This document shows positions 527 to 47,200 of a DNA stretch of 64,000 nt, one piece after another. Numbering within the stretch: position 1 is the stretch's first letter; each line of letters starts with the position of its first letter. Position numbers and translations under genes: made by a program. Source of the stretch: Nitrospira defluvii (GTDB lineage: Bacteria > Nitrospirota > Nitrospiria > Nitrospirales > Nitrospiraceae); assembly GCA_000196815.1 (NCBI GenBank), contig FP929003.1:3371501-3435500 (forward strand), read 5' to 3'. The notes below the pieces were generated by a model that saw only the letters and a program-made list of their open reading frames with translations, did no database searches and was not told the origin of the DNA.

Positions 527-629
527 ACGACAGGATTCACTGCTCCCTGTTCAATGAGGTCGTCACCATCCGCCCCATCATTGGACATCGAGCATTGCGC
601 AGTGACCATTGACAACTAGAGGAGTCGAG

Positions 630-32734: not shown

Positions 32735-34561
32735 TCACAACCGGAGACTCCAATCCTCTCGGTCGGTGGTTAAATTCACATGGTAATAGGGATCCCCGGC
32801 CCGAATGACGTCGCCCCAGGTCTGCCAGACTCGTTCCTCGTCGGCTCGACAACGAGTCCCTTTCCTTGTTGCCGATTCATAGTGATACAACACAGCTTCC
32901 GGAGCGTACACGATACGCTGTCCAGCTCGCCTGATCCGAAGACAGAGATCCACATCGTTGTATTCGACCGGGAGTGTGGGATCAAACCCCTGAATCTGTC
33001 GGAAAAGAGTGCGAGACACCAGCAGGCAGGCCGCCGTAACAGCGCTGCAGTTACGCGTTACATGGGCAAGTCCATGGTATCCCCATTCGTGGTTGGGAAT
33101 GTGCCGGAACGCATGGCCAGCCACACCTCCTACCCCAAGCACGACGCCCCCATGCTGCATTCTCCCGTTGGGGTAAAGAAGTTTGGCTCCAACCGCACCA
33201 ATCCCTGGTCGGGAGGCCTGCTCCATCATGATCGTAAGCCATTCTGGAGTCAGGACTTCCGTATCATCATTGAGAAAGAGGAGGTACTCCCCGTTCGCCT
33301 CACACGCTCCTCGATTATTAATGGCTGAAAAGTTAAACGGACCAGGGCAGGATACGATGCGCCATTTCTTTCCAATCTCATCGAAATATTTTCCAGTATC
33401 CTCCGACACGCTCCCATTGTCGAGAATGAGAATTTCATAGGACGTATAGGTCGTGCACTTTTCGATGCTGGCAACGCACCGCGATAATAGAGAGACCCGA
33501 TCTTTGGTGGGAATAAGAATCGAAACGAGTGGTTGGTGGTCAAGCCGATAGCGGATGCGGAATCGCCCAGGCACGAGCTCCTCGACCCTGCCCTCGATGC
33601 CCCTGCGATGAAGGGCACGCTCGAGCGCTAGTTTTTCCGCAGACGCAGATTGTGTTGAGCTGCTCGCATGGGTAGTCTTCGGATTTGATCCTCTCCGCGA
33701 ATGGTAGAGCACGCTTGGAAGATGAACGATATGAGTGGCCTTTTCGGATGCCCACAGAAGACAATCATAGAGACAGGAGCTGTGTTCCCGCTTGTTAAGT
33801 TGATCGATGTCGTCTAACAAGGCTTTTCGAAATACAGTGGAATAGGACAGATAGTTCATCGAGAGAAGCAGCTCGGGGCTCCATGACGGCTTAAAAAATG
33901 GTTTCGGGGCACAGCCATCCGGCGGAAGCTGATCTTCATCGCAATAGCAAAGATCTATGTCTCCCCCTTCATTCAACGCAAGGACAACCGAGTGAAGCGC
34001 CTGAGCAGCCAGCAGATCGCCACATTTCAAGAACCAGACAAACTCTCCGGATGAAGCCGCGACTCCCAAAAGCAACGACTCGAACTCGCGCGTCTCGACT
34101 TCCAGAACATGCAGCGACTCTTTATCCGCCACAGCAATAACCTCAAAGAGCCCCCGGATCGCATGCGCCTGAGAAGGTTCACAGACCAAAATAAGTTCCC
34201 AGTTGGGATAGGTCTGCCGCGCGATAGACTCGATAGTAGCTTTCAGCTCAGCAAGGGGACTGCCGACAATAGACACGATAAGACTGATCAGAGAGACGCG
34301 AGAAGTATCCGCATTACTCAGCGCAGGAGGGCCGGAGTCTTGACGGTGTCGCTCAATCCAGACTCGATACTGTTCTTCGAGCGACCTCGAAGAGATAGGC
34401 CAACCGCGGCTCCACTCTCGATAGAGCTTCGTGGCAACACCCACTACTTTCCGCCTAAGACTTCCCAGTCCCTCATGTCTTGAGACGTGCACAATTCGCT
34501 CGATCACCCAACGTACGCCGTCCCCTAAACCAGGAGTGCACCTCACGCGATCCCGAGCCAT
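32735..34561 (-). CDS. Two-domain GT2 glycosyltransferase
   Basis: A 608-residue protein with two GT2 modules. The first (about 90-310) opens SLISLIVSIVGSPLAELKAT and carries YPNWELILVCE; its DxD-like site is DEDQLPPDG. The second (about 345-590) opens PLVSILIPTKDRVSLLSRCV, with EILILDNGS, LFLNDDTEV and the W-x-N-x2-D type FDPTLPVEYNDVDLC. This layout is the rhamnosyl-type bifunctional GT2 seen in O-antigen and teichoic loci. It starts four bases after the nucleotidyltransferase stop. Sugars are unknown. Confidence 0.85.
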   Translation of the reverse strand: MARDRVRCTPGLGDGVRWVIERIVHVSRHEGLGSLRRKVVGVATKLYREWSRGWPISSRSLEEQYRVWIERHRQDSGPPALSNADTSRVSLISLIVSIVGSPLAELKATIESIARQTYPNWELILVCEPSQAHAIRGLFEVIAVADKESLHVLEVETREFESLLLGVAASSGEFVWFLKCGDLLAAQALHSVVLALNEGGDIDLCYCDEDQLPPDGCAPKPFFKPSWSPELLLSMNYLSYSTVFRKALLDDIDQLNKREHSSCLYDCLLWASEKATHIVHLPSVLYHSRRGSNPKTTHASSSTQSASAEKLALERALHRRGIEGRVEELVPGRFRIRYRLDHQPLVSILIPTKDRVSLLSRCVASIEKCTTYTSYEILILDNGSVSEDTGKYFDEIGKKWRIVSCPGPFNFSAINNRGACEANGEYLLFLNDDTEVLTPEWLTIMMEQASRPGIGAVGAKLLYPNGRMQHGGVVLGVGGVAGHAFRHIPNHEWGYHGLAHVTRNCSAVTAACLLVSRTLFRQIQGFDPTLPVEYNDVDLCLRIRRAGQRIVYAPEAVLYHYESATRKGTRCRADEERVWQTWGDVIRAGDPYYHVNLTTDREDWSLRL

Positions 34562-34565
34562 GAAA

Positions 34566-35258
34566 CTACTCCCACTCTGGCAGTTCTATTTGGGCACGCT
34601 CATAGTCTGCAGGTATGCCAATATCAATAAAATACCCGTCGGCGAAGAATGCCTGCGGACGAAGCTTGCGAACCTTTTGTGCAAGGAAACCGCTCTCGAA
34701 TGAAAACTTTTCCGGAAGCTCCGAGTGTTCAAGCAGATTTCTGGGAATCAGATACACACCGGTATTAATATGCCCACCGCCTCCCCGCTCTCCAGACTCA
34801 AAGGAACAGACCACACCCGATTGAATGTTGACCTTCCCATACCGCGAAATATCGTTCAGGTAGGTGACAGCCATGGCCATGGACGTGGATCCCCCATCGA
34901 ACTCGCTAGCCATACGTCGATAGTCAACCTGCGAAAAAGTGTCTCCGTTGATGACAAAAACTCGATCCGACGTCACCATTCTCAATGCCTGTTTGAGTGC
35001 GCCACCGGTTCCTAATGGCTCCGTTTCGGTCGAGTATTGAATCGTCAGACCGCGATACTGGCTCTTGAAGTGATTTACTATGGCGTCTGCGCCATAACCC
35101 ACGGCGACTGTAATCGATCGAATTCCCTCCGTGAGGAGATAGTCGAATAGGTATTCTAAAAAGGGGCGCGAACGTATCGGTGCCAATGGTTTTGGCACTG
35201 TCGACACGCTAGGCCGTAAACGTCGGCCAAGTCCTCCAGCAAGGATGATGGCTTCCAC
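34566..35258 (-). CDS. hddC: Heptose-1-phosphate guanylyltransferase-like nucleotidyltransferase
   Basis: A 230-residue sugar-nucleotidyltransferase beginning AIILAGGLGRRLRP, with VPKPLAPI, EPLGTGGALKQAL and FVINGDTF. It charges a sugar-1-phosphate with a nucleotide. The GHMP kinase just upstream is of the heptose-kinase HddA type, so a GDP-D-glycero-D-manno-heptose route is the best fit; plain glucose- or mannose-1-P transferases share these motifs, so the symbol is an inference from context. GTG start with AGAGG eight bases away. Confidence 0.75.
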   Translation of the reverse strand: MEAIILAGGLGRRLRPSVSTVPKPLAPIRSRPFLEYLFDYLLTEGIRSITVAVGYGADAIVNHFKSQYRGLTIQYSTETEPLGTGGALKQALRMVTSDRVFVINGDTFSQVDYRRMASEFDGGSTSMAMAVTYLNDISRYGKVNIQSGVVCSFESGERGGGGHINTGVYLIPRNLLEHSELPEKFSFESGFLAQKVRKLRPQAFFADGYFIDIGIPADYERAQIELPEWE

Positions 35259-35419
35259 GGTAGAACCTCTTGGGCCACAGCAGCGTGTAGCGGAACACCC
35301 CCCTGGTGATCAGGGTAAGGCTGAATCGTGCAAGTATGGACACTTGCTGTTGAGGCTGGTAATCGATGGCGTGCCGTATCGTCAGGCCGCCTAATGGATG
35401 GATGGAGAATTGTCGACAA

Positions 35420-36448
35420 TCACTCAACTCGCCATCCTTGCGTCCCATGCTTGGTGAATTGGCAGTTAAACACATCGGGGCCTACAGAGCGGAGCGCTCG
35501 CACCACATCCATCTTGCGGGCAGGATCGACGATAAACATCATGTACCCGCCGCCACCAGCACCGGACACTTTACCTGCTCGAGCGCCGGCTTTCTTGGCG
35601 AGTGCATAGATTTCATCAATATGTGGATTGGAGATGAGGGTGGCAGTCTGCTTCTTAGAATGCCAAGACATTTCCATTGATCGCGCAAACCCAGCAAAAT
35701 CTCCCTTGAGCACGCTCTCCTTCATAAGCACAGCTTCTTGCTTCAATTGATGGAGCGCCGCAAGGGGAGCCTCCTCCCGGCTCGCCACATTCTGGCGTTG
35801 TTTCTCAATGATGACCGCAGAAGATCGAGATACTCCCGTGTAGAACAGCACTAATGACGCTTCCAGTTCTGAAATGATCCAGTTTTTTACCCTGAGCGGG
35901 TTCACAATCACACGGTCCTTGGCATAGAACTCGATGAAATTAAACCCTCCAAACGTCGCAGCATACTGGTCTTGCTTCCCACCATGAAGGCCTACATCAT
36001 GTCGTTCGATCTCGTAGGCAAGATGCGCAATGTCGTATTCGCCCAGCGGAAGGTTGAGAAGTTCAACAAACACCTTGATCATCGTCACTACCAGCGTGGA
36101 GGATGACCCCAGGCCTGATCCAGCCGGAGCATCGCAATAGGTGGTCAAGGTCAGTGGAACCGGTGTCCCATGGTGAAACTCCTTCATGATACGGTTATAC
36201 ACCCCCTTATGCAGGTCCAGAACTCCGTCATGAGGAAGATAATGGCTTGCCTCCGCTTCATAGTTAATATTTTGGTCCGTGGCAACAAACTTCACCCTGC
36301 TCGAATTGACGGTCTCAATCGTGGCATAGGCATATCTATCGATGGTGGCATTCAAAACCACCCCGCCGTAAAGATCGCAGAAGGGAGGAACATCGGTTCC
36401 TCCCCCTGCAAGACCCAGTCGTAACGGCGCCCTCGCGCGTACAATCAC
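35420..36448 (-). CDS. hddA: GHMP kinase, heptose 7-phosphate kinase-like
   Basis: A 342-residue GHMP kinase. [19 protein letters not shown] at the N terminus, [11 protein letters not shown] at 108-118 as the ATP loop and [13 protein letters not shown] near 300 as motif 3 match D-glycero-D-manno-heptose 7-phosphate kinase HddA. The GTG start is preceded by AGGAGG seven bases away, directly after a 7-bp hairpin (36462-36478). The next gene is the nucleotidyltransferase, which supports the GDP-heptose pathway. The isomerase GmhA and phosphatase GmhB are not in the window. Fucose or other kinases of the family are an alternative. Confidence 0.78.
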
Positions 36449-36461
36449 CCTATAACCTCCT

Positions 36462-36478
36462 CAGGGCAAAATGCCCTG
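36462..36478 (-). terminator. Hairpin directly before the hddA ribosome site
   Basis: CAGGGCA (36462-36468) and TGCCCTG (36472-36478) with a three-base loop. On the minus strand it lies between the methyltransferase gene and the AGGAGG of hddA, so it could attenuate or pause transcription, or shield the mRNA end after cleavage. No long T-run follows. Confidence 0.35.
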
Positions 36479-36552
36479 TTTCAACCAGGCACGCCGAGCG
36501 GCAACCAATAGTCGGTGCTGCCCACTGCACATCCATTAGCGCTCGGGAAGGA

Positions 36553-37290
36553 TCATAGATCGGTATCATTCTTAAAGGGCGGCACCGTCTTATTCGCTTG
36601 CCTAAGCGTATCAGCATCATTGAGGTATTGATTGAGGTGAATCCGCATCTCACGGTTTTCGACAGGAGCCCGCGTTGGCAGGCGACCACCTTCTGCAACT
36701 TCGCTCGTTACACGTTTTCGAACTACGACCTCGATCCCACACTCTCCGACAGGGGACCTGGTCTGGTCGTATTTTGGCAACTTGTACCGGTAGGTTGCTG
36801 AGAGAAGCTCCACTTTGATAACCTCAGCGTTGCTACCCAACTCCATAAGCAGCGGCAACATATTTACCGATTTTTGATTCCAGGACTTCTCTTTATAAAT
36901 GGCAAAAGTCCACTTGTGATCCTGGTTATATGCACTGGGAAATACTCCTTGTTCATACAAGTCTTCATCGGGAACCAGAATGACCAGATAGCCTCCCGGT
37001 TTCACCACTCGAAACCAATTCTTGAGCCCCTGGCAAGGATCGACTAAGTGTTCCAGACAATGGCTGCTATGAACGAAGTCGTACTGTTCATCGCGAATCT
37101 CAGAGAGAAACTGCGCGTCGCCGTCTTCACGATCCCAGGTTTGAACATGTTCAATCCGTGAAAACAATTCAGCATACAACGCCAATGGATCCGGCTTTCC
37201 CCCAATATCGAGTCCCCTGCCGACAAAATACCGATTACTAAAATTGGGATCGCTCAATCGCCGGGCAATGGACTTACTACACTCTTTCAT
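36553..37290 (-). CDS. Class I SAM-dependent methyltransferase
   Basis: A 245-residue methyltransferase. After YFVGRGLDIGGKPDPL (motif I: GLDIGG) come YDFVHSSHCLEHLVDP and FRVVKPGGYLVILVPDEDLYEQG (motif post II/III). The ATG at 37290 has AGGTG seven bases upstream. In this region, it probably methylates a sugar or the terminal residue of the surface glycan. The C terminus is Arg/Lys-rich without an assigned motif. The exact acceptor is not known. Confidence 0.75.
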   Translation of the reverse strand: MKECSKSIARRLSDPNFSNRYFVGRGLDIGGKPDPLALYAELFSRIEHVQTWDREDGDAQFLSEIRDEQYDFVHSSHCLEHLVDPCQGLKNWFRVVKPGGYLVILVPDEDLYEQGVFPSAYNQDHKWTFAIYKEKSWNQKSVNMLPLLMELGSNAEVIKVELLSATYRYKLPKYDQTRSPVGECGIEVVVRKRVTSEVAEGGRLPTRAPVENREMRIHLNQYLNDADTLRQANKTVPPFKNDTDL

Positions 37291-37324
37291 AAACCAACAC
37301 CTGCAGAGCACTCCATCGAGACAC

Positions 37325-38500
37325 CTATCCCATCTTCATGATTGAGCCGGCCGAGTCCGCAAGCCGAAGGCAGAAGTCCGGCGTGAAATGACGATACACT
37401 TGCCTATTCATTGTAGAACTATTTCGCATACTGGCAATGAGATGCGTGGGTTTGATCGTACCTGCAGCCAACAGCTCCTCATCCAACTGGGCGATTCGGT
37501 CAATGAACGCCCTGTCGACATCAACCTGTGCATCAAAGTTATGCCCAAACGCTCGATCGATGAAAATATCAATAATGTTTCCGTAGGCAAGGAACATCTC
37601 GAACTTGAAGGTGTGCGTCAAGAGCGGCAAAATATCTTGCGCGCGAATGCCTTCAAATCCCCCTACGGAACAATCCCAATTTTCATACATAGGCTCATAT
37701 CGGCTGAGCAAATGATTGTACTTGTACCGGTCCGGCATGGTTCTCCAGACCTCCTGAACAACCTCAAGCGCTTCAGGCCATCGCATGTGCCCGTTTCGGC
37801 CGATAATATCGGAGACAACAAAGACTCCAGAGTGGCCGATAGCAAGTCGAACTTTTCCGAAAAGGACTTCGAGGTCTTGAAAGTGGTGCAGTGACTGATT
37901 CGCAACGATCACCGAATACTGTTTGTCACACTCCCAATGTTTCACATCTGACTCTACAAAATTGAGATAGGGCAGCATCTGTTTCGATGACGCCAACGCC
38001 CTCCCACGCGCTAGCATCTGCGGATTCACTTCAATACAATCCAGTTGAAACCTTGTGATTCCGCTCGCCACCAGTTGCTCAGCCATCACAACCTCGGCCT
38101 CGCAATTTCCCGTGCCAAGACTCGCCACATGACACATCTCTCCCGGCTTGACGCGACACGCGTCCGCAACATATCTGACGAACAACTCCGTAACACCAGG
38201 GATATTGAGCGCCACAAACCTCGGCAGCAGGTATTTTTCAGACCAATAGTGAAAAATGTCCGGAAGATCATGAACATTCTGGACATTCCGAAAATTGGCG
38301 AGCTCCCCTTTCAGCCGATCAGCATACTCGAGGTCGGAAGATCCGCTGCATCCACATGGATATCGCTTAGGCGTGGCAGGGTGCAGCAGCATGCCGACAT
38401 TGGTTCGACGGTATCTTTGCCGCATCCGATCAATCAACGCGGCTCGGCCTTCATTCCGCCAAATGTGCCACACGCGCTGCAGGAGACCGGCATCAAACAT
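37325..38500 (-). CDS. SAM-dependent methyltransferase domain protein
   Basis: A 391-residue protein. Residues about 120-290 are a class I methyltransferase: CHVASLGTGNCEAEVVMAEQL (motif I), LDCIEVNPQMLARGRAL, and VIVANQSLHHFQDLEVLFG. The first 110 residues are not recognised; the last part has LIASMRNSSTMNRQVYRHF. It follows the smaller methyltransferase by only 34 bases in the same direction. It may modify the glycan chain or a lipid. The size is unusual for a simple sugar methylase. Confidence 0.65.
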   Translation of the reverse strand: MFDAGLLQRVWHIWRNEGRAALIDRMRQRYRRTNVGMLLHPATPKRYPCGCSGSSDLEYADRLKGELANFRNVQNVHDLPDIFHYWSEKYLLPRFVALNIPGVTELFVRYVADACRVKPGEMCHVASLGTGNCEAEVVMAEQLVASGITRFQLDCIEVNPQMLARGRALASSKQMLPYLNFVESDVKHWECDKQYSVIVANQSLHHFQDLEVLFGKVRLAIGHSGVFVVSDIIGRNGHMRWPEALEVVQEVWRTMPDRYKYNHLLSRYEPMYENWDCSVGGFEGIRAQDILPLLTHTFKFEMFLAYGNIIDIFIDRAFGHNFDAQVDVDRAFIDRIAQLDEELLAAGTIKPTHLIASMRNSSTMNRQVYRHFTPDFCLRLADSAGSIMKMG

Positions 38501-38555
38501 TTGGAGCCCCAGCTAACACATGTGCCCTTGCGCCAATGAACGTTCCAACAACGAC

Positions 38556-39314
38556 CTATGGCCTTGCTTGATTAAGCCCTGCCCTGAACACGAATTGCGG
38601 GAAAATCTGCTCCGAGTTGAGGCCGTCTCGACGAATAAGCGTGCTCTCGACCACCTCTGTGGCGCCCAGGCAACTGGATACCGTCGCGTCATCAAACACG
38701 ACATACCCTCCGACCGCCATATGGGGCTTCACGATCTCATAGGAGTACGCAACAGAGGAGTAGATGTCGCAATCAATGTGTGCGAGCACAATATTTTTCG
38801 CGCGACGCAAGACAGCGGGAGCTGTGTCCTGAAACAGGCCTTGGACAAACTCCAGATTGTGCAATCCATTGGTGGCCGCATAACAGCGTAACTCGTCCAG
38901 GTCTACCTCTCCGAAATCACCCTTCTGGTGCGCATCAACATCTGAATTGGTCGCGGGCATGCCTGCGAAGGTATCGAGTGAGTACACTCTGGTGCCGGGA
39001 TATAGCTGATCAACGAGATGAGCCAAAAAAATCGCGTTGCCTCCTCGATAAGATCCGAACTCGATCACATCGCCAGCACCGACCTTGCCGAGAAAAAATT
39101 TGACAATGAGAAAGAGGTTGATGCGGTTGTCTTCTGCAACGACCGTACGGCCATGCGCCAGGGCGATAGCCTTCTTGTAGAGCGGATCCTCACTGACCCG
39201 CTTTCGAAGCTCTCCAAACTGGATACCCCATCCCCGAATATATCCATCATAGATGCTTCGGCCATTTCTCAACTCACAGGAAATATTGTTCATTGTTGGA
39301 AGGTAGTTCGACAT
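38556..39314 (-). CDS. TylF/MycF-like O-methyltransferase
   Basis: A 252-residue protein of the macrocin-O-methyltransferase fold: VIEFGSYRGGNAIFLAHLV (motif I), YSLDTFAGMP, and VLAHIDCDIYSSVAYSYEIV with the metal-binding DxD, then GGYVVFDDATVSSCLGA. TylF-type enzymes methylate deoxysugar hydroxyls with Mg2+, and in glycan loci they often cap sugars. The ATG at 39314 has GGAG eight bases before it. A second relative is encoded next (39515-40351). Confidence 0.8.
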   Translation of the reverse strand: MSNYLPTMNNISCELRNGRSIYDGYIRGWGIQFGELRKRVSEDPLYKKAIALAHGRTVVAEDNRINLFLIVKFFLGKVGAGDVIEFGSYRGGNAIFLAHLVDQLYPGTRVYSLDTFAGMPATNSDVDAHQKGDFGEVDLDELRCYAATNGLHNLEFVQGLFQDTAPAVLRRAKNIVLAHIDCDIYSSVAYSYEIVKPHMAVGGYVVFDDATVSSCLGATEVVESTLIRRDGLNSEQIFPQFVFRAGLNQARP

Positions 39315-39514
39315 GCCACAACTCCAAAGTTGCCACAAGCGGCCCGCGCACGGACCGCACCCGACTGAGCACAGGAGGGGATTCGGTGCTTCTAGAATAG
39401 CAAGAACACCCTCAAACTCCATAGAATTTCACAAGTTCGACCACGACATGAAGGGCATCAGGCCTGGCAGGTCACCATGGCCTCATTGCGGCGAGGAAGA
39501 CCGCTCGGCCAACT

Positions 39515-40351
39515 TCAAGGTTTGAACAAGAGACCTTGCCCAGTCGGCAAATTGGCAATCTTCACGCCTTTCTGTAGCGCAAAGGCATCCATGGCCTCTT
39601 TTTGTTTCCCAAAATTGAGCCAGCCGTAGTCATCAAGAATGATAGGGGCACCAGGCACCAGCTTATCCCAGAAGTATTCGATGGCTGCCCGTTCAGGCAC
39701 GACGATGTTCATATCTAAACATAGGTAACAGACGTCGCCAATCGGCACAGAAACTAATGTATCCGGGACCTTTCCTCGCACGAGCATGGCCATGGGAAAT
39801 GGAGAAAAGTTCATCTTTGCTCTCTCATAACAATCGTCATACTGCTGTTCATTCTCCTGAACACGGCCCAGCAACCGTTCGTAGGGTGTGATTTGGTCTT
39901 CCGGAATACCCTGAAATGTATCGAAGAGAAAAAACGTTTTCCCGGTCGAGTTGAAATCAATATAGTTGGCCACAGCCAGGGACATGATACCAGTGTTCGT
40001 CCCACATTCGACAAAATCGCCAGGCAACTGCTTGGCATGCCACGCTGCCCAACAACAGATATGGATCCGCCATTCAATATGGATATCGTCGGACGAACCT
40101 GCAGGACGAGCAATTTTGTGCCCGGAATTCATTCCGGCCTTATAGGCCGCCATGAACTTCTGATCTTGGAGAAAGTCTGGATTCTTGTGCCAGACGGTCA
40201 GAAAATCCGCATCATAGGTTGGAGTGCCGCGCGCATCACTCCAGGAAGGGCGAGGCGTTACATGCGGCGGCGTGCCCGCGGGCACCTCATCAGTCGCCCC
40301 AGGCTTACGGATCCATGCCGAGATACGTTTTAGAAAGTCACGAACAGCCAT
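39515..40351 (-). CDS. TylF-like O-methyltransferase
   Basis: A 278-residue relative of the gene downstream. FVECGTNTGIMSLAVANYI is motif I, LFDTFQGIPEDQ the next, and CYLCLDMNIVVPERAAIEY holds the DxN metal region, followed by GAPIILDDYGWLNFG. N-terminal 60 residues are polar and Pro-rich. It likely methylates another position of the surface sugar. The two TylF-like genes are 200 bases apart; the intervening DNA is without a gene. Confidence 0.78.
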   Translation of the reverse strand: MAVRDFLKRISAWIRKPGATDEVPAGTPPHVTPRPSWSDARGTPTYDADFLTVWHKNPDFLQDQKFMAAYKAGMNSGHKIARPAGSSDDIHIEWRIHICCWAAWHAKQLPGDFVECGTNTGIMSLAVANYIDFNSTGKTFFLFDTFQGIPEDQITPYERLLGRVQENEQQYDDCYERAKMNFSPFPMAMLVRGKVPDTLVSVPIGDVCYLCLDMNIVVPERAAIEYFWDKLVPGAPIILDDYGWLNFGKQKEAMDAFALQKGVKIANLPTGQGLLFKP

Positions 40352-40459
40352 CGTAGGAGTGACCTCAGCATAAAAGATCTCACGCCAAAACGGTCAGGCT
40401 GCTTCTGAATTCAGCGCAGACATCAGAACCATTGATTGAGTGGGCGCAGCGCATCTCCT

Positions 40460-43400
40460 TCACACTTTTTTGCAGACAAAGAGGTCCTTGGTCACCACCC
40501 CGATGCAAGGTTCCGAATTGTTTATAAACGTAACCTCGAAACCAATATGTCTCAATTGAGCAACAAGTTCCTGGCCATAAATCCGATAGACCAGGATGCC
40601 TGTACTATTCATGGGGTCACCGTGGTATTGCTTTTCCATCACATAGATATCTTCCACTCCTGAGCTATCGATACGAACCTGATTGGATTGCCATCCCGGC
40701 ACATAGGGAACCGTAAACACATAGCAACCACCAGGTCTGAGACAGCGATAGATCTCCCGATGCGCAGCCTCATCCCTCCTCACATGTTCCATTACATCCG
40801 AAGTGATGATAATGTCATAGAACCCATCTTGAAACGGCATTGCCTGAAGGTCGATGTTCATAACTTTCGGCCTGATGAACTCCCCGAACGGCCGGGTGGG
40901 GTCATAAATAGATGAGGTATAAAACTCCGCCTCCTTCAAGAATTTGAACAAGGGGCTAAATCCATCGGTGTCAAATATGCGGGGGCCCGCTGGCGCAACT
41001 GCGAGCTCGGCAATACTCCGCACCATGTGGTTTCCAATTTGATCGAGCAACCCGCTGGCCAGGGATCGATTTCTGCAGCTTGCGCCACAGGCATCACAAA
41101 GCAAACTCTCTCGAAGATTCTCGGATCCCAACGTCTTGAAATGTACGTGTTCCCCACAAACATTGCAGGTCCCATAGTAGGTCGCAGGAAGCCGCCGCGA
41201 GCGCGTGGGGATGTGAAAACTATCAAACAGATCCGAGTAGGAATTTGTCGCCGCTTCAAATGAGTATCGATCTCTGACGATCGCATATCCACGGTTCGAC
41301 AATTTCTGCCATAAATTCTTGTCCCGATACAGCTGTGAAATTTTGGCGGCAAGATCGTTGGCTGTATCGGCGATGACCACATCGCGGCCATCTTCCAACT
41401 CCATGCCCTCGAACGCCACACTGGTACCAGCACAGGGAAGCCCGTATGCCAGACAGCTCACAATCTTGCCTTTGATACCCGCGCCATATCGTAGCGGATT
41501 AACCGACAGTCGGATGTTCGACATGAGCTCCCCAAGATCAGGCACATAGCCGGTCACAATCACATCATTACCGGCGAGCCGCTGAACCGACTCAGGAGGA
41601 CGACTACCGACGATGTAGAATTTGACCCCGGGCAACTCGTCCCGCAGAATCGGAAACACCTCGGTCACAAAATACTGAACAGCGTCCACGTTCGGGAGGT
41701 GTTGATATCCACCTAAGAATAGAATGTCCTTGGTGTCCTCGAACTCAACGCTGCGCACATAACGCTCATGCACGGCCGAAATCACAGAAAATTTTGCGCA
41801 CGGCACTTCCTTCTGAAGGATGGCCTGTTCCAGCTGACTGACGACCACGGTGCAATCAACCTGTGCAACCAAGGCCAACTCCTGAGCCTTTCGTCGTTCC
41901 GCTTGCTTGGCCAATTGGGAATTTCCTTCGATCATCGCCTGCCGCTGCTCACGGAGGTAGTGAATATCAGCAGTATCGTACAGCACTTTGGCTGTGGGAC
42001 AATGCTTCCGGTAACTGACCAGGTGCTTTTCAGTGACGTCGGGGCGGCAGGAAAGAATGAGGTCATACTTTCCTCCCTCTTGCGCCAAATGCTCCTCCAG
42101 CGTCGCCACATAGGGCCAATACAGGCATTGCACTCCACGCCGCTGAAGGTCCTCGGTGTACCGATCAATGAAAGTCAGGTCATCTGGCACAAAGGTAACC
42201 TGGTACGAAAGGGACTGAAAGATCTTGATGAAGTTATAGATCTTCAGAGAACCGGCATCTTGGTCCGGCGTCGGAGTGCACGCATCCACAACCAAAATCC
42301 GCCTGGTGACGGTTCGTTCTCGTTCTAGTTCAGGACGTTCCCCAGGAGCGGCGTGGTCTATCAGAACAGAGGCCCATCGGTGAAAGAGTTTTTCCTTATT
42401 GACTACCTGATGTCTCTTGACGCCCTGAGAGACTTTCGTTCCTGAGCTGGTGCCCTCGAAATGGATGATTTTCGCCATCGGCTGATAGAAAACTTTCCTG
42501 CCGGCCTGCCGAACCTTGAACGCTAGATCGGAATCTTCGCCATACGCCGGGGCATAGTGATCATCAAAACCTCCCAGTTGGGAGAACAGATCCTTCGGGA
42601 GTAAGATGCACGCACCTGAGCAATAATCCACTTCCCGCAGATAACAGTATTCAGGCTTGTCAGGATCATCACAGCGTCCATAATTCCACGCCGATCCGTC
42701 ATTCCAGATAATCGACCCCGCTTCCTGCAAGCTCTCATCCGGATACAACAGTTTGGCGCCGACGAGCCCCGCATCGGGGTGTAATTCAAATGTTTGCACC
42801 AACTCCTCAAGCCAATGAGCCCGCACAATGGTGTCATTATTCAGAAAAAGCACATATTGGCCCTGAGCGACCTTGGCGCCGGCATTACAAGAGCCAATGA
42901 ATCCTAGGTTGGTTTCGTTTCTGACCACACGAATGCCCGAGATGTCCGCCAGCATGTGAGGCGTTTCATCACCCGAACAGTCATCCACGACGATCACTTC
43001 GAAAGGGATCCGTGTTTCGACCTCAGTGATTGATTTCAGGCAGGTGTAGGTCACGAGAGGATGATTGTGAATAGGAACGATAACGGACACCACCGGCTCG
43101 GATGATGAGCCGACGGTTAGAGGGGTCCAAACCCTTGCGAAGAAGTGCAGCTGCTTCCGTTTCCGTATCGGTCGTCCCATCATCCGCTGCGCTCGCTCGG
43201 CAATTTTCCCAGCCAGGGCTATCGTTCCCTGTTCGCGCCAAACGCAACACGCCTTCCGAATCAAATTCGGCAATGATCGAACTTTACGCGCCATACGACT
43301 GACAGGTAACCATGTCCCGAGAGGTCTCCTGGCCACGCGCTCCCGTACCAGCCATTTGAGCAACCGCAATCCGATCTCATAGACTTCTCTCCGCTTCGTG

Positions 43401-44317
43401 TACGCAGGGAAGAGTCGATTGGTAACTTCCTTTGCCCGGCAGATAAACCGCCATCCATTGGATGCCTTAATTTGCTGCAGCTCACCCGCAACCGCAACGA
43501 GCCTAGCCCCTGTCTCTTCCAACTCACTCGCGAGGCGATTCGCCCAGTGAGCAATTTGCTGTTGCTCCTTCCACAAATCGGACTCCCGGTCCAGATACAC
43601 AGACGTGGTTCGATGCCGATCAATGCAAAGGTCCTGATCACCACAGACAGCTATGTAATACATAGGGGCATCCAAACAGGGAACGCCAAAGCTGTCTTTG
43701 CCGCCCACATCGCTATAGGCCGCATAGCCATTCTCCCCTGCAGACGCATTGAGCGGAAACACCACGGATCCAGTCGCTAAACGTTGTCCATAGTACGCCA
43801 CGGACCGAAACCTTGCCGTGAGCAGCTCATTCAGTTCGTTCCAGTCCAATTCTTTCACATGAAACGGATTCGGCTGGGTGGACCCTTCCGAATACACCGG
43901 TCGGTTGGGGGAAGACAGAATGAGGATCCCATCTGGTTTCAGAACACGCTTGACCTCATTCAACATTTCCTGGTGACGATCATGATGTTCGATGGTTTCG
44001 AACGAGGTGACTAAATCCACAGAATGGTCTTGGATCGGCAATTCGCCACAACTTCCCGCCGCAAAAGACAGATTCTTGGACGCCCGATAACGGTGGGTGG
44101 CATAGCGGACACACTCCCCACTGAGGTCGATTCCCACGACCTTCGTCGCCACTTGCGCAAGAATCACTGATCCGTATCCCTCCCCCGATGCGACGTCCAG
44201 TACAACCTTTCCCATAGCCCAATCCATGGCAAGGCAATAGCGGTGTAGATGTTCGTACTTGATCTGGCCTCCCAAAGCTGGGACATATCGTTCACCGGTA
44301 AATCGCATTTCGATCAT
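40460..44317 (-). CDS. Four-domain methyltransferase/GT2/GT4/methyltransferase protein
   Basis: A 1285-residue single reading frame. Start ATG 44317 has AGGAAG ten bases upstream; a longer frame to 44380 runs into the next gene. Residues about 35-165 are methyltransferase 1 (LDVASGEGYGSVILA at 40). A helical link (about 245-290) with ELEETGARLVAVAGELQQ leads to a GT2 at about 408-635 (VVSVIVPIHNH, LFLNNDTIV). A GT4 spans about 672-1040 (FLGGYQHLPNVDAV, GAGIKGKIVSCLAYGLPCAG). At 1051-1081 a cysteine cluster (C1051, C1054, C1074, C1077, C1081) precedes methyltransferase 2 (about 1085-1285; DVMEHVRRDEA). It would assemble and methylate a glycan end in one chain. The specific sugars are unknown. 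Confidence 0.85.
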   Translation of the reverse strand: MIEMRFTGERYVPALGGQIKYEHLHRYCLAMDWAMGKVVLDVASGEGYGSVILAQVATKVVGIDLSGECVRYATHRYRASKNLSFAAGSCGELPIQDHSVDLVTSFETIEHHDRHQEMLNEVKRVLKPDGILILSSPNRPVYSEGSTQPNPFHVKELDWNELNELLTARFRSVAYYGQRLATGSVVFPLNASAGENGYAAYSDVGGKDSFGVPCLDAPMYYIAVCGDQDLCIDRHRTTSVYLDRESDLWKEQQQIAHWANRLASELEETGARLVAVAGELQQIKASNGWRFICRAKEVTNRLFPAYTKRREVYEIGLRLLKWLVRERVARRPLGTWLPVSRMARKVRSLPNLIRKACCVWREQGTIALAGKIAERAQRMMGRPIRKRKQLHFFARVWTPLTVGSSSEPVVSVIVPIHNHPLVTYTCLKSITEVETRIPFEVIVVDDCSGDETPHMLADISGIRVVRNETNLGFIGSCNAGAKVAQGQYVLFLNNDTIVRAHWLEELVQTFELHPDAGLVGAKLLYPDESLQEAGSIIWNDGSAWNYGRCDDPDKPEYCYLREVDYCSGACILLPKDLFSQLGGFDDHYAPAYGEDSDLAFKVRQAGRKVFYQPMAKIIHFEGTSSGTKVSQGVKRHQVVNKEKLFHRWASVLIDHAAPGERPELERERTVTRRILVVDACTPTPDQDAGSLKIYNFIKIFQSLSYQVTFVPDDLTFIDRYTEDLQRRGVQCLYWPYVATLEEHLAQEGGKYDLILSCRPDVTEKHLVSYRKHCPTAKVLYDTADIHYLREQRQAMIEGNSQLAKQAERRKAQELALVAQVDCTVVVSQLEQAILQKEVPCAKFSVISAVHERYVRSVEFEDTKDILFLGGYQHLPNVDAVQYFVTEVFPILRDELPGVKFYIVGSRPPESVQRLAGNDVIVTGYVPDLGELMSNIRLSVNPLRYGAGIKGKIVSCLAYGLPCAGTSVAFEGMELEDGRDVVIADTANDLAAKISQLYRDKNLWQKLSNRGYAIVRDRYSFEAATNSYSDLFDSFHIPTRSRRLPATYYGTCNVCGEHVHFKTLGSENLRESLLCDACGASCRNRSLASGLLDQIGNHMVRSIAELAVAPAGPRIFDTDGFSPLFKFLKEAEFYTSSIYDPTRPFGEFIRPKVMNIDLQAMPFQDGFYDIIITSDVMEHVRRDEAAHREIYRCLRPGGCYVFTVPYVPGWQSNQVRIDSSGVEDIYVMEKQYHGDPMNSTGILVYRIYGQELVAQLRHIGFEVTFINNSEPCIGVVTKDLFVCKKV

Positions 44318-44366
44318 ATACAGCAAACTTCCTACACACAGGTGAGGGGGATAGATGCATAGCGCA

Positions 44367-45068
44367 TTAGGCCACGGCAATTAACGCAATACCAGCAGGG
44401 TAGCAATAGGACACAATGCGACATTCGGAAAAGCCTGCACTGAGAACAACCTCCCATACGTCCGCCCCGAACTCGGTATGCACGCGCATCGCTTCATCGA
44501 GGCAGCCGGGATGGCCATGATAACTCGGGGAACGCTCGTGTCGTCCACGCGACAGCCGCCCGACAATAATGGGAACAGTAAACACACACGCGCCGCCCCT
44601 ACGGAGCACCCGACGGCACTCCTTGAGCCCTTTGACGGGATCGGAAATATGTTCAAACGTATCCGAGTGGAGGACAATGTCGAACGATTCACTCTCGAGA
44701 TCAAGCGCCATCATGTCGTATTCGGGGTAGCGCACCAATCGATGGTGCGGAATATTTTTGAGGATGCCACTCAACGTTCCCGCTTCATTAATCTCTAATG
44801 TCTGTAGAGACTGTGCGAGCGGTGCATGCACCCACTCGACTAGTGGACTTGGTGACTCATGGTAGCGCAAGAAAGCATCGGCCAAGGCGATTGATCGCAC
44901 GTTAGAACCGCATCCCACACAAGCGGTTCCTTGCTGAACATTGATATAGGCGGCCTCTTCCTGAGACAGTTCCCACTGACTAATAAGATTGCCCCACAAC
45001 ACGTCGTGGTGAGCAAAGCGCTCTCCGCCACACACTCTACAGGGCGACAGAATCATTGGCGTTTTCAT
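44367..45068 (-). CDS. Methyltransferase with N-terminal zinc ribbon
   Basis: A 233-residue protein. CRVCGG near the start and CVGCGSNVRSIALADAFL later form a four-cysteine ribbon; then a class I methyltransferase with SFDIVLHSDTFEHISDPVKGL and RRVLRRGGACVFTVPIIVGRLSRG. The CxxC...CxxCGSxxR word closely matches the ribbon before methyltransferase 2 of the 1285-residue neighbour, so the two modules are probably related. It overlaps the ABC ATPase 3' end by 32 bases. It most likely methylates a glycan cap. Motif I is less clear because the ribbon is adjacent. Confidence 0.72.
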   Translation of the reverse strand: MKTPMILSPCRVCGGERFAHHDVLWGNLISQWELSQEEAAYINVQQGTACVGCGSNVRSIALADAFLRYHESPSPLVEWVHAPLAQSLQTLEINEAGTLSGILKNIPHHRLVRYPEYDMMALDLESESFDIVLHSDTFEHISDPVKGLKECRRVLRRGGACVFTVPIIVGRLSRGRHERSPSYHGHPGCLDEAMRVHTEFGADVWEVVLSAGFSECRIVSYCYPAGIALIAVA

Positions 45069-46386
45069 TGTGCGAGTTCTGCGTAACAAGCCGATGCAAC
45101 TCCACATGCAGCAGCTCAACGGCAATCAGCCCAAAACACAACTCTGAAGGATTTGAGCTAAAGGTCAGGGCATCATGAATCCAATGGTACTGAACGTGAT
45201 GCTCCTGTGTGCCTTCGGCGAGCGCAACGCTTAATGAGTAATCACCAGCGTGAAGTACCGGCATCATAAATTCCAGCTCGGCGACAAATCGTGTACCTGG
45301 CACAATTGTACTTGAGGACGACCCTTGGCCTGCCACGCAAACATTGCCACCGAAAAGCGACTGACCAAGTCGATCCCTTACGACAAAACCCACAATTGGG
45401 CTCAACAACTGTATCGAGGTTTGGCACCACACTAGGAGAGATACGCGCGCGCTTGCCTGAACCGTATGAAGCACTCGGCCTGAGGCATCCCTGAATGCCA
45501 CCTTTTCTATGCACGCCCGACGCTCGCCGAACAACCCAGACGTCTCCAGCCATTGCGCACCTGCACCATCGTCGGAAACAGCGCGAGTCTCGCTCTCCCC
45601 GAACATAGCGCCACGCGGCACGTTCCCATGTGATGCCTGCGGATTCAGGTAACGATCACACACGCTCTTCGCTTCACCCATATCAGCGACCCGTCCATGA
45701 TCGAGCCACAGAGCGTTACGACAGAGACTGAGCACTGCCGCTGAATCATGGCTCACAAACAATACCGTGCCATGTTCCATGAATGCCCTCAGAAAGCGCA
45801 TGCATTTTTGAACGAAGAACGCATCTCCAACAGCCAACGCTTCGTCAATAATGAGAATATCCGCCTTAACATGTGCAATCACCGCGAAAGCCAGCCTGAC
45901 GATCATGCCACTGGAGTAGGTTTTGACAGGCTGATCGGCCGCGATCCCGATGTCAGCAAACGCAAGGATGTCATCCAACTGCACATCAACATCCTCACGC
46001 GACAGTCCGAGCAAGGCCGCATTGAGGTACACGTTCTCGCGCCCCGTGAACTCGGGGTGAAATCCAGCACCAAGCTCCAACAACGCGGCCACACGACCAT
46101 CGATCTCGATCGTTCCGCCTGTCGGACTCAAGGTCCCCACGATCAACTGCAACAGCGTGGACTTCCCCGATCCGTTCCGGCCGATGATGCCGAGCGTCTC
46201 CCCCTTCTTCACCTCGAAAGACACATCTTCGACGGCATGCACCTCCCGGTAATATTGCGCGGGTTTGCGTCCGAGGCATGTCTGCACCGCAGGCAGGATC
46301 CACTGCTTCCCCCTGTCGCCCGGGCGATCGTACAGCCGATAGGTTTTCGACAGATTGTGAACGCGGATGGCCCACTCAGAGGACAT
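45037..46386 (-). CDS. ABC-2 polysaccharide exporter ATPase, Wzt type
   Basis: A 449-residue ATPase. Walker A is IGRNGSGKSTLL, the signature KTYSSGMIVRLAFAV and Walker B ILIIDEALAVGDAFF; between them LELGAGFHPEFTGREN is typical of Wzt/TagH. Residues about 265-449 form a C-terminal beta domain that in Wzt binds the modified chain end before export. That fits a locus full of methyltransferases, because Wzt reads methyl or other caps. Start ATG 46386 overlaps the permease end by 11 bases. The pair exports O-antigen or a capsule-like glycan. Confidence 0.9.
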   Translation of the reverse strand: MSSEWAIRVHNLSKTYRLYDRPGDRGKQWILPAVQTCLGRKPAQYYREVHAVEDVSFEVKKGETLGIIGRNGSGKSTLLQLIVGTLSPTGGTIEIDGRVAALLELGAGFHPEFTGRENVYLNAALLGLSREDVDVQLDDILAFADIGIAADQPVKTYSSGMIVRLAFAVIAHVKADILIIDEALAVGDAFFVQKCMRFLRAFMEHGTVLFVSHDSAAVLSLCRNALWLDHGRVADMGEAKSVCDRYLNPQASHGNVPRGAMFGESETRAVSDDGAGAQWLETSGLFGERRACIEKVAFRDASGRVLHTVQASARVSLLVWCQTSIQLLSPIVGFVVRDRLGQSLFGGNVCVAGQGSSSSTIVPGTRFVAELEFMMPVLHAGDYSLSVALAEGTQEHHVQYHWIHDALTFSSNPSELCFGLIAVELLHVELHRLVTQNSHNENANDSVAL

Positions 46387-47200
46387 CGGCAAACGCCTTC
46401 CGTGTCTTCTGAAACCACAGGAGCCCGGCCCATGCGACCAGGTAGCTACACACACCATAGAGGGCGATGCCGACCCAGGACGGAGCTTTTCCCCAGATGA
46501 GCACATCCTGCGCTTGAGTGATGAGAAAGGTGAGCGGATTCGCATGGAGCAGCACCCGATAGGGTTCGGGCAATGCCGAGGCCGGATAGAACACCGGCGA
46601 CAGAAACAACATCACAGTGGTGACCGGTCCGCTCGCGTGGCCGAGATCCCTCAGGAACACACCGGCGGAGGCGAGAAACCAGGAGATTCCGATCGTCACC
46701 AGGGCCAGCGGCAGGAGCAGGACAGGGATCAACAACATCGTCCAATGCAACGAATGGTGGAGGATACCGTAAAAGACGATCAACACAAGTGCACTGACGG
46801 CCGCGTGGAAGAGCGCCGCGCCGAGGGAAGTCCAGGCGAGAATTTCCAGCGGAAAGACAATCTTTTTGACGTAGTTGCTATGATTCACGATCAGGTATGG
46901 CGCCCGATGAATACTCTCAGCAAACAAGGCATGAATGATCAGCCCCGAGAACAGCAGGAGGCCGAAATCCAGGGCACTCTCGCCGTCCCGCCCCCACCGC
47001 ATACCGAACGCGCCCCTGAACACAATCGTATACACGGCCAGCATGACCGTCGGATGCAGAAATGCCCATACCACGCCCAGCAGCGACCCTCGATAACGGC
47101 TGACGATTTCGCGCTTGGTCAATAGACAGAGCAGGTTCCAATGCGAGGACATACTGGTAAAGACCATGAGGGGAGAGAGGCCGTATTGCCGCGACGCCAT
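46376..47200 (-). CDS. ABC-2 polysaccharide exporter permease, Wzm type
   Basis: A 274-residue six-helix permease: LLTKREIVSRYRGSLLGVVWAFLHP at the N terminus is the Wzm/TagG/RfbA signature, then VNHSNYVKKIVFPLE (the membrane-crossing Y-V-K-K-I-x-F-P-L) and the C-terminal SPVFYPASALPEPYR. It forms the channel with the Wzt-type ATPase. It is the first gene of the surface-glycan cluster on this strand, so the export machinery leads the transcript. Confidence 0.9.
   Translation of the reverse strand: MASRQYGLSPLMVFTSMSSHWNLLCLLTKREIVSRYRGSLLGVVWAFLHPTVMLAVYTIVFRGAFGMRWGRDGESALDFGLLLFSGLIIHALFAESIHRAPYLIVNHSNYVKKIVFPLEILAWTSLGAALFHAAVSALVLIVFYGILHHSLHWTMLLIPVLLLPLALVTIGISWFLASAGVFLRDLGHASGPVTTVMLFLSPVFYPASALPEPYRVLLHANPLTFLITQAQDVLIWGKAPSWVGIALYGVCSYLVAWAGLLWFQKTRKAFADVL

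Follow-up and report, generated by a model that had tools for sequence, protein, structure and literature searches.

Single polypeptides in which a methyltransferase (MT) precedes two glycosyltransferase (GT) domains, and which act as polymerase-terminators, have already been described in WsaE (PMC2943079) and in ORF6 of the Klebsiella O7 cluster (PMC11231755). WsaE of Geobacillus stearothermophilus NRS 2004/3a, a trifunctional S-layer glycan enzyme, combines an N-terminal methyltransferase that makes a 2-O-methyl cap with two GT domains and is encoded beside wzm/wzt (PMC2943079, PMC3898925); the accessible parts of these papers mention no C-terminal Cys-ribbon MT, and WsaE is likened to our protein here by described domain content only. 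Klebsiella pneumoniae O7 ORF6, as outlined in PMC11231755, has an N-terminal methyltransferase, a kinase and a carbohydrate-binding module–like domain ahead of a coiled coil, and two GT2 modules that form its C-terminal end. The same source attributes a polymerase-terminator logic, with the coil as a ruler in ABC-transporter pathways, to WbdD/WbdA of Escherichia coli O9a and WbbB of Klebsiella O12, of which WbdD is a separate MT-kinase and WbbB caps with Kdo, both unlike the protein studied here. In the systems that it covers, terminator and GTs occupy opposite ends of the coil (PMC11231755).

Here we analyze a fusion protein of Nitrospira defluvii encoded in a 64,000-nt stretch of assembly GCA_000196815.1 (contig FP929003.1, 3,371,501-3,435,500), hereafter the window, to which all coordinates refer (Table 1). 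Because MT-GT-GT polymerase-terminators are on record, its domain combination is not as new as it first appeared; what is unusual is that the polymerase side of the coil has a methyltransferase too, and this bracketed arrangement recurs, with the GT order reversed, in two genomes of a sister genus. Among the papers listed in a literature search, largely outside subscription, none described a natural swap of a writer-reader block or a polymerase bracketed by two MTs.

Results and Discussion

Table 1. Features of the Nitrospira defluvii locus in window coordinates
Feature	Coordinates	Strand	Basis
Fused CDS, MTn - coil - GT2 - GT4 - Cys-ribbon MT (ZnMT), 1285 aa	40460..44317	-	ORF, Pfam, full-length homologues in G001 and G006
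MTn, class I methyltransferase, residues 1-226	43640..44317	-	Methyltransf_11, glycine motif LDVASGEGYG intact
Heptad-like coil, about residues 243-288	43454..43591	-	Periodicity, 7-residue indel
GT2 module, about residues 406-655	42353..43102	-	Glycos_transf_2 (PF00535) 2.1e-28, 411-538
GT4-type module, about residues 666-1030	41228..42322	-	PF13692 (Glyco_trans_1_4) 6.8e-22, 863-999
ZnMT, Cys ribbon + class I MT-like domain, residues 1041-1285	40463..41197	-	Pfam, ribbon-MT alignment
CysMT, stand-alone Cys-ribbon MT, distant ZnMT paralogue, between wzt and fusion	44367..45068	-	Pfam, alignment
Wzt, ATPase + C-terminal carbohydrate-binding domain	45037..46545	-	PF14524 8e-30; aligns to A. aeolicus Wzt 8dku
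Wzt_C, Wzt residues 339-474	45124-45531	-	PF14524
Wzm permease	46376..47200	-	PF01061 1.3e-24
Exchanged cassette	32490..46140	.	Left edge about 32490, right crossover inside wzt about 46020-46140
TylF-type O-methyltransferase 1 (TylF1)	39515..40351	-	PF05711
TylF-type O-methyltransferase 2 (TylF2)	38556..39422	-	PF05711
Methyltransferase MT37	37325..38500	-	Pfam
Methyltransferase MT36	36553..37311	-	Pfam
HddA-like D-glycero-D-manno-heptose 7-phosphate kinase	35420..36448	-	NF049969, 444.3 of 600 bits, under curated cut-off
HddC-like heptose 1-phosphate guanylyltransferase	34566..35258	-	NF049965, 215.5 of 300 bits, under curated cut-off
GT2-GT2 protein, final cassette gene	32735..34561	-	PF00535, 2 stretches

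Domain architecture of the fusion protein

The open reading frame runs over 40460..44380 (1306 codons counted from a TTG) and, from the ATG at 44317, is read without a single internal stop; over the same coordinates, the plus-strand frame that was translated is broken by many stops. The fusion is encoded on the minus strand, a detail that the first-pass annotation had not given. That annotation had proposed one unbroken frame of 1285 residues joining a methyltransferase, GT2, GT4, a Cys ribbon and a second methyltransferase, and on both counts it was right: the frame is intact here and in two further genomes, and Pfam and our alignments agree on the domains. Pfam reports two stretches of Methyltransf_11, the best at residues 40-134 (whole-protein E 3.9e-33); we place the second at the C terminus since CysMT matches residues 1153-1211, an NCBIfam MT match covers 1154-1207, and residues 1041-1285 align with a ribbon-MT family of CxxC...CxxC pattern.

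MTn retains motif I of class I SAM methyltransferases, in which G45, G47 and G49 are invariant among 12 aligned sequences including that of the window. It resembles WbdD at the level of generic MTs only (2.5e-07, about 50th among the matches listed), and no kinase domain, a trait of the WbdD family, is found among the 20 Pfam matches or the 25 NCBIfam matches listed (of 55). The protein differs from O7 ORF6 in having no kinase match, a GT2 plus a GT4 module, and a second MT after the GTs. The terminator-coil-polymerase layout is nonetheless present as MTn, a heptad-like stretch and GT2-GT4, with the coil assigned from its periodicity and one seven-residue indel: the 3.5-residue hydrophobic moment of residues 245-286 is reached by 0.12% of shuffles, and the protein of G006 is missing exactly seven residues within this stretch. 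The coil of the window protein is short, and several relatives, read by eye, carry a longer coil-like sequence after the MT. A structural model of residues 1-660 from a three-row alignment was unusable (mean pLDDT 30.6).

Distribution and origin of the fusion

The full-length fusion is found in three of 29 Nitrospira genomes, namely that of the window, G001 (81% identity, query 1-1285) and G006 (75%, query 1-1284). Since the same frame is intact in the latter two and the N. defluvii assembly is one contig of 4,317,083 bases, a frameshift or assembly join as the source of the fusion is ruled out. The first-pass annotation had named such a join, together with homologues encoded as separate genes, as grounds for dismissing the fusion; the separate genes do exist, the N-terminal MT being one at the same slot in ten other Nitrospira genomes, but the join does not. 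Nor is a recent in-place fusion of the stand-alone Nitrospira MTn with a downstream GT supported, as the tree places the three fused MTn sequences in one clade (100/100) and the ten stand-alone sequences in a second (100/99); long branches elsewhere in this tree make the deeper branching order unsafe. Because rpoB gave no match in G001 and G006, gyrB was used instead (a 440-base fragment in G001).

The annotation had also suggested looking for the same domain order elsewhere; it recurs in G001 and G006, while in the sister-genus genomes G216 and G223 the two GTs stand in reverse. These proteins likewise have MT regions at both ends of two GTs in one frame, and they differ further in carrying N-terminal terminators of other families and a Wzt_C unrelated to that of the window (14 and 21%). 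Beyond the phylum, we covered a plasmid collection and ran a single genome_contigs scan. The scan returned four loci, of which two are full length, both from Nitrospira genomes already known; in the plasmid collection, none of the 442 matching records covers 80% of the fusion protein at one place, and ZnMT alone matches 25 records. Single-frame plasmid proteins of Allorhizobium pseudoryzae, Gluconobacter oxydans and Pseudodesulfovibrio profundus (1623, 1155 and 1209 aa) share an MTn-like MT, a coil-like spacer, GT2 and GT4, but differ in their very different spacer lengths, in lacking the C-terminal ribbon-MT, and in having no Wzm/Wzt match within about 6 kb.

The exporter and its putative cap pocket

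As in coiled-coil polymerase-terminator systems, the locus encodes Wzm and a Wzt with a C-terminal carbohydrate-binding domain. The sugar and methyl-pocket residues of Aquifex aeolicus Wzt are published, among them His350 as a sugar contact (PMC9445017), and the window Wzt aligns to that protein over both ATPase and carbohydrate-binding domain (E 4.2e-69). The window Wzt keeps Asn313, Ala348 and Trp362, has the conservative replacements Val for Leu300 and Ser for Thr346, and has Ala in place of His350; by hand count on this alignment, Tyr233, Met353 and His355 differ as well, and Val380 falls outside it. The Asn, Ser, Ala and Trp at positions 313, 346, 348 and 362 are common to the window Wzt and all 14 Nitrospira loci. 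We dropped these residues as a marker of MTn: the Ala+Trp pair occurs in 5/8 MTn-bearing representatives versus 9/83 loci without MTn, the eight having been picked partly for MTn, and Trp alone (5/8 versus 23/83, p 0.10) is not clearly different.

Natural chimeras and surveys of Wzt_C

In three comparisons among four other genomes, the N-terminal terminator, rather than the polymerase half, is the part with which Wzt_C co-segregates. G216 and G223 each encode MT-GT4-GT2-ZnMT in one frame downstream of Wzt (1550 and 1611 codons); their coil-GT4-GT2-ZnMT halves are 78% identical over 1024 aa, their terminators have no mutual match, and their Wzt proteins align only up to residue 319, in the ATPase, with Wzt_C at 19%. 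Conversely, G223 and G264 have different polymerases and share terminators (51% over 705 aa), and here the Wzt alignment is full length (65%; Wzt_C 59%). G264 and G206 again share the polymerase (83% over 808 aa) without mutual match of the terminators, and Wzt_C is at 26%. In both shared-polymerase pairs, homology of the large protein starts within the coil and most neighbouring genes are at 73-88% DNA identity. The chimeras are not clean two-point swaps. In the G216/G223 pair, the differing block of G216 contains one small gene that G223 carries before wzt, about 2 kb ahead of wzt in G216 are unmatched in G223, and G223 has an additional gene after the fusion; between G264 and G206, most of wzt differs, as do about 2 kb past the polymerase.

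A pair survey of 104 Wzt loci, in which pairs were compared by shared wzt-proximal N-terminal modules versus later parts, points the same way. Pairs with N-terminal modules but not later parts in common have a Wzt_C median of 0.248 (n=36), compared with 0.088 for the converse pairs (n=72) and 0.063 for all pairs. As many as 24 of the 36 pair Nitrospira with L077 or L061; with Nitrospira collapsed to one, 14 such pairs remain (median 0.239, nine at ≥0.2), against 36 converse pairs (median 0.094, six at ≥0.2). Exceptions exist on both sides: five of the 36 fall below 0.2 (L126-L156, L168-L173, and L152 with L141, L151 and L158), and six of the 72 polymerase-only pairs reach 0.25-0.32 (L061 with L132, L137, L138 and L140; L128-L062; L144-L163).

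For MTn itself, 11 of 12 strong places (≥160 bits, phylum draw; six of them Nitrospira, including the window) adjoin Wzt or lie one gene off, compared with two of eight weaker places beside a Wzt, and the Shinella plasmid CP132320 has the order Wzm-Wzt-CysMT-MTn as in the window. MTn and Wzt_C are not linked exclusively. Of eight MTn-bearing representatives, three (L056, L063 and L149) have an unrelated Wzt_C, G177 carries MTn beside a 254-codon Wzt without the C-terminal carbohydrate-binding domain, and L079, L132 and L137, which are among the loci close to the window in Wzt_C, have no MTn. A simple rule by which Wzt_C similarity tracks MTn presence was only weakly supported, and the chimera comparison takes its place here.

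Predicted roles of the two methyltransferases

We read the window protein as a polymerase-terminator of the coiled-coil class, working on a surface glycan that depends on an ABC transporter, with MTn as the writer of the export cap, at a probability of roughly 0.6. GT2 and GT4 would elongate the chain; MTn, across a coil that may act as a ruler, would methylate the nonreducing end, stopping growth and creating a cap that the C-terminal domain of Wzt would read before export; and CysMT may add to the same cap. The succession of MT, coil and two GTs in O7 ORF6 and the described domain content of WsaE support this scheme, and since Wzt_C goes with the N-terminal terminator in the chimeras, it is probably MTn that makes the cap for Wzt. 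We infer the catalytic activities, the reaction order and the roles of coil and ZnMT from sequence. The first-pass annotation had suggested that one polypeptide could build and cap a glycan beside a cap-reading Wzt, which the alignment to A. aeolicus Wzt and the partly kept pocket make plausible, and it pointed to the C-terminal methyltransferase for the capping; here it probably placed the cap at the wrong end, given the chimeras and the position of known terminators in PMC11231755.

That ZnMT nevertheless makes the export cap, with MTn doing something else, would fit several observations. Purifying selection on ZnMT resembles that on the other modules (dN/dS 0.04-0.09 for the four domains and 0.14-0.21 for coil and linker, rough values with dS >1 in all but one); its relative CysMT is the immediate neighbour of wzt in 14 of the 29 Nitrospira genomes (the window's counted) and on one Shinella plasmid; and a ZnMT-like domain in G215 adjoins Wzt, fused ahead of MTn. 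We nonetheless regard this as quite improbable: G216 and G223 share the ZnMT half but not Wzt_C, motif I of ZnMT is noncanonical, known terminators sit across the coil from the GTs, and the ten non-fusion Nitrospira genomes, whose Wzt_C is 49-65% identical to that of the window, have no fused ZnMT, six of them having a separate gene with a short ZnMT match (about 64 residues, 31-34%). It is also unlikely that MTn and ZnMT both methylate the repeat unit of a heavily methylated glycan and that the cap comes from, for example, CysMT, TylF1 or TylF2. The cassette does hold six genes with seven MT domains by Pfam, and CysMT is both the gene closest to wzt and, across Nitrospira outside the fusion trio, more similar to its window counterpart than MTn is (62-68% versus 39-47%); against this, G206, G143 and G069 have no CysMT between Wzt and MTn, and a coil after the MT is a marker of terminators.

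With MTn as the likely cap writer, ZnMT, as part of the polymerase half, would methylate the repeat unit or an intermediate; this second, non-export methylation is a tentative assignment, at a little under even odds. ZnMT may instead be noncatalytic, a zinc-bound docking or acceptor-holding module of MT fold, which we consider doubtful. Its ribbon cysteines are C1051, C1054, C1074 and C1077, and the glycine-rich motif I (GxGxG) is absent from all 19 aligned members, although MT family models still match relatives of ZnMT. The model from a six-row alignment is of low confidence (mean pLDDT 55.7); class I MTs or MT-fold domains make up almost all of the 50 Foldseek matches listed (TM 0.25-0.40, normalised to the query), which include the MT-like domain of anamorsin, for which profile matches give E about 1. 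To our knowledge, that domain does not bind SAM. However, D..EH is kept in 19/19 rows, most rows also retain stretches resembling FTVP and YHG(D/N)P, and eight of the 13 matches in the phylum are in short frames (244-383 codons), as for a stand-alone enzyme. PF08421, which we take to be the zinc-binding domain of sugar C-methyltransferases (Methyltransf_13/14 type), is absent from the Pfam matches of the fusion protein and CysMT at E 0.01. ZnMT remains with the polymerase in the G216/G223 comparison, but this tie is not strict, as G206, whose polymerase is 83% identical to that of G264, lacks a homologue of the G264 ZnMT gene in the compared stretch.

The putative cap reader closes Wzt and the putative writer opens the next large protein, so recombination between the Wzt ATPase and the coil could swap both in frame while the polymerase is kept. 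We propose, at somewhat less than even odds, that writer and reader of the cap are exchanged as a single genetic block and that polymerases of this kind gained, at least twice, another methyltransferase on the side of the coil where they lie. If so, single-chain synthases would use one module to methylate the polymer and a different one for its end, and a methyltransferase on the polymerase side would extend the module arrangements outlined in PMC11231755 and PMC2943079. Which enzyme makes the mark read by the exporter is usually settled by biochemistry, one serotype at a time; clusters with a common polymerase and differing terminator and Wzt_C are a ready comparison set for this question, and from them one can predict which parts would match in glycan engineering.

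The exchanged cassette

The fusion gene sits in a cassette of roughly 13.6 kb that is swapped within the genus, one crossover lying within wzt. The locus marks a site of surface-glycan switching in Nitrospira, an important nitrite oxidiser; pressure from phages or grazers behind such switching is speculation. The relative of MT37 in G176 is fused C-terminally to GT2-GT4.

A single frame joining methyltransferases and glycosyltransferases

The fusion is a real gene. Read on the minus strand, it forms a single 1285-residue frame from an ATG at 44317 to a stop at 40460, in a genome assembled as one contig of 4,317,083 bases; the first-pass annotation had described one uninterrupted frame, and no break occurs anywhere along it. 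An N-terminal methyltransferase (MTn) is followed by a coil, GT2 and GT4 domains and a C-terminal Cys-ribbon methyltransferase-like module (ZnMT). We placed the second methyltransferase stretch at the C terminus because the neighboring stand-alone Cys-ribbon methyltransferase (CysMT, encoded between wzt and the fusion) matches residues 1153-1211 and because residues 1041-1285 align with a family harboring two CxxC pairs. In a 19-row alignment of this family, D..EH is present in all 19 rows, FTVP- and YHGDP-like stretches are largely kept, and the canonical glycine motif is missing from all 19 members; the structure model of ZnMT is weak. The 3.5-residue periodicity of coil residues 245-286 is matched by 0.12% of shuffles.

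Modules of the 1285-residue fusion protein (residue numbering)
Module	Residues	Strand	Basis
MTn methyltransferase domain	40-134	-	Pfam
Heptad-like coil, between MTn and GT2	243-288	-	periodicity
GT2 domain	411-538	-	Pfam
GT4-type domain	863-999	-	Pfam
ZnMT	1041-1285	-	second Pfam methyltransferase stretch; alignment to ribbon family

The same order was sought in other genomes, as the first-pass annotation had suggested, and the full protein is found in three of 29 genus genomes searched, namely our own, G001 (81% identity) and G006 (75%). All three share the gene order Wzm, Wzt, CysMT, fusion, TylF1; TylF2 and the methyltransferase gene MT37 come next in the window and in G006, and the G001 contig stops after TylF1. 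The G006 coil is exactly seven residues shorter, a single event that fits a heptad structure. Values of dN/dS, which are approximate as dS exceeds 1 in nearly all cases, are 0.04-0.09 for the four domains and 0.14-0.21 for coil and linker, and the four domains look constrained.

Distribution of the modules

Judged from sequence, the parts of the fusion are combinatorial. In ten other Nitrospira genomes, the same slot harbors Wzm, Wzt, CysMT, a stand-alone MTn of 322-358 codons and then a multi-GT protein of another kind (980-1044 codons; the one scanned by Pfam has two GT2 domains and one GT4-type domain), although the contig of one of these genomes (G019) stops before Wzm. ZnMT relatives at an E value of 1e-12 or better occur in 13 genomes of a phylum draw of 295: C-terminal in multi-GT frames in three (our own, G216 and G223), behind a single GT2 in G225, in front of an MTn in G215 and in frames of 244-383 codons in eight; in G248, the ZnMT gene lies directly 3' of a GT2-GT4 gene. 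The G216 and G223 frames, from another genus of the same family, comprise 1550 and 1611 codons in the order MT region, coil-like stretch, GT4, GT2, ZnMT. Plasmids of Allorhizobium, Gluconobacter and Pseudodesulfovibrio encode MT-GT2-GT4 single frames annotated just as glycosyltransferase, and in G176 GT2-GT4 is joined to a relative of MT37, which is a separate gene in the window. None of 442 matching records in the plasmid collection covers 80% of the fusion protein at one place.

Several further arrangements were observed. In L063 (7741-9450; G215), ZnMT is fused in front of MTn in a 570-codon frame right after wzt, reversing the window order. In Nitrospira G005 (L212, 4921-7869), the wzt-proximal slot is occupied by a frame of 983 codons that contains two MTn-like stretches, scoring 38 and 104 bits, and follows a gene with weak similarity to CysMT. 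A Shinella sumterensis plasmid, from another phylum, carries Wzm-Wzt-CysMT-MTn as in the window (L077, 3733-7736), with a Tn3-family transposase nearby. Between the MT and GT2 encoded on Pseudodesulfovibrio profundus plasmid paDPRO (L075, 6620-7105), the coil-like stretch harbors 9.0 copies of a 54-base repeat (99% match), and slippage of this repeat could lengthen or shorten a ruler. Near-perfect seven-residue repeats (RDRQIVE type) occupy residues about 520-555 of the coil-like stretch in the 1550-codon frame of L107 and coincide with the start of homology to G223 (residue 523).

The N-terminal half mostly tracks the probable cap reader

To ask which METHYLTRANSFERASE writes the cap, we used three locus comparisons that separate the halves. 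G216 and G223 share a coil-GT4-GT2-ZnMT half (78% identical over 1024 residues) and neighboring stretches that, where matched, are 80-88% identical DNA; their N-terminal chain-ending halves (terminators) have no mutual match, and the Wzt alignment stops at residue 319. The first-pass annotation had suggested that the module order builds and then caps a glycan end; capping by the C-terminal methyltransferase is not supported here, as this pair shares the ZnMT half, yet its Wzt C-terminal domains (Wzt_C) are 19% identical. Conversely, G223 and G264 have different polymerases and terminators 51% identical over 705 residues, and Wzt aligns over its full length at 65% (59% in the C-terminal domain). 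In G264 and G206, the polymerases are 83% identical over 808 residues and matched neighbors 73-84% identical DNA, with no mutual match of terminators and 26% identity in Wzt_C. In each pair with a shared polymerase, the region of difference extends from wzt as far as the coil.

These swaps are not clean. A small gene lies inside the differing stretch in G216, and its G223 counterpart precedes wzt. Some 2 kb ahead of wzt are also unmatched in G216, and the fusion of G223 is followed by an additional frame of 429 codons. Between G264 and G206, DNA identity is only 68% in the ATPase part of wzt itself, so most of wzt differs, as do about 2 kb past the polymerase, the ZnMT gene of G264 included. 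G206 thus has the polymerase of G264 but, in the compared stretch, not its ZnMT gene, which makes ZnMT an optional part. Assembly error is unlikely for this pair, as the G264 genome consists of one contig and the contig with the G206 locus spans 1.8 Mb; the G223 genome is a draft in which the locus sits on a 27.6-kb contig. Within Nitrospira, the polymerases differ, relatives of MTn and CysMT remain, and Wzt_C of nonfusion genomes is 49-65% identical to that of the window, which fits the chimera pattern.

A crude survey of relative Wzt_C scores among pairs of 104 Wzt loci (80 chosen by hand, largely from the top of the listed places and skipping loci already in the set, and 24 fetched for other reasons) agrees with these comparisons. 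The 36 pairs that have wzt-proximal N-terminal modules in common and differ in later parts reach a median score of 0.248, the 72 converse pairs 0.088 and all pairs 0.063; the pairs are not independent of one another. With Nitrospira collapsed, 14 N-terminal-sharing pairs give a median of 0.239 (nine at 0.2 or more) and 36 converse pairs 0.094 (six at 0.2 or more). Exceptions comprise five of the 36 pairs, below 0.2, and six of the 72, at 0.25-0.32. MTn also stands beside an unrelated Wzt_C in L056, L063 and L149; only two of eight weaker MTn matches adjoin a Wzt, and the three plasmid MT-GT2-GT4 fusions have no Wzt within about 6 kb. In L207 (5252-7439; G177), an MTn with a long coil-like tail (502 codons) lies beside a 254-codon Wzt that lacks the C-terminal domain.

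Proposed writer and reader in a probably exchanged cassette

Identity between the window and three close kin (G018, G028 and G025) is 83-97% from about 28000 to base 32490 and 89-99% from about 46140 to 46980, with quite different sequence in the interval; further right, it is 85-96% over the compared range and declines to 80-85% past 49500. Of eleven genomes lacking the fusion that were compared by blastn, ten have a left match ending at 32487-32491 and one has a left match ending at 32388; the right match starts at 45646-45656, just past the Wzt ATPase, in eight and further into the ATPase in three. In close kin, identity steps from 73-83% to 89-95% inside wzt, at about 46020-46140. Because identity drops between the left edge and this step, part of the ATPase, Wzt_C, CysMT, the fusion, the other methyltransferases, the HddA/HddC-like genes and the GT2-GT2 protein seem to have been transferred jointly. 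GC content is 0.49-0.54 in cassette genes up to CysMT and 0.58 in wzm and in the window overall. Mapping the fusion onto a gyrB tree takes three changes for its three carriers, at least two of them forced by supported branches, a count no lower than with shuffled labels.

Bases 37500-38700, which span most of MT37, are 92-98% identical to G006, far above the flank (66-78%). This peak is a sign of horizontal exchange, and a recent transfer is likely.

Probable cap reading and a proposed mechanism

The window Wzt aligns over both domains with Aquifex aeolicus Wzt (E value 4.2e-69), whose carbohydrate-binding domain binds 3-O-methyl-mannose; cap reading by the Wzt C-terminal domain is established (PMC9445017). 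To place the published positions, we took the chain index to be one higher than the numbering in the paper, as inferred from where Asn, His and Trp fall. On this basis, the window carries Asn at 313, Val at 300, Ser at 346, Ala at 348 and Trp at 362, with Ala in place of His350; Tyr233, Met353 and His355 also differ (hand count). The same Asn, Ser, Ala and Trp occur in 14 of 14 Nitrospira loci, and the Trp also in 23 of 83 Wzt loci lacking MTn. These residues fit a methyl cap and are not proof of one.

By analogy, the fusion would work like WsaE, Klebsiella O7 ORF6, WbbB and WbdD/WbdA, from which it is set apart by a methyltransferase located on the coil's polymerase side and by the lack of a kinase. 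Chain building, capping and reading are modeled here on known systems as described in PMC2943079, PMC3898925 and PMC11231755, the last of which already discusses varied module arrangement in this polymerase-terminator class. In the open-licence literature, we found no report of joint writer and reader exchange, nor of a polymerase bracketed by methyltransferases on both sides. GT2 and GT4 would elongate a lipid-linked chain until methylation of the terminus by MTn, held across the coil, stops growth; Wzt would then recognize the methylated end and the chain be exported. ZnMT, a putative enzyme that is fused to the polymerase half in the window, G216 and G223 and directly follows GT2-GT4 in G248, probably methylates during elongation.

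Upstream of the exporter genes, window bases 50019-52115 encode a protein of 698 codons that matches Wzy_C (O-antigen ligase) and TPR and could be the ligase for this glycan. Elsewhere in the genome (454886-455266; L180), a 433-codon frame encodes a second Wzt_C protein, and many Nitrospira genomes contain frames of comparable length, making a second capped glycan possible.
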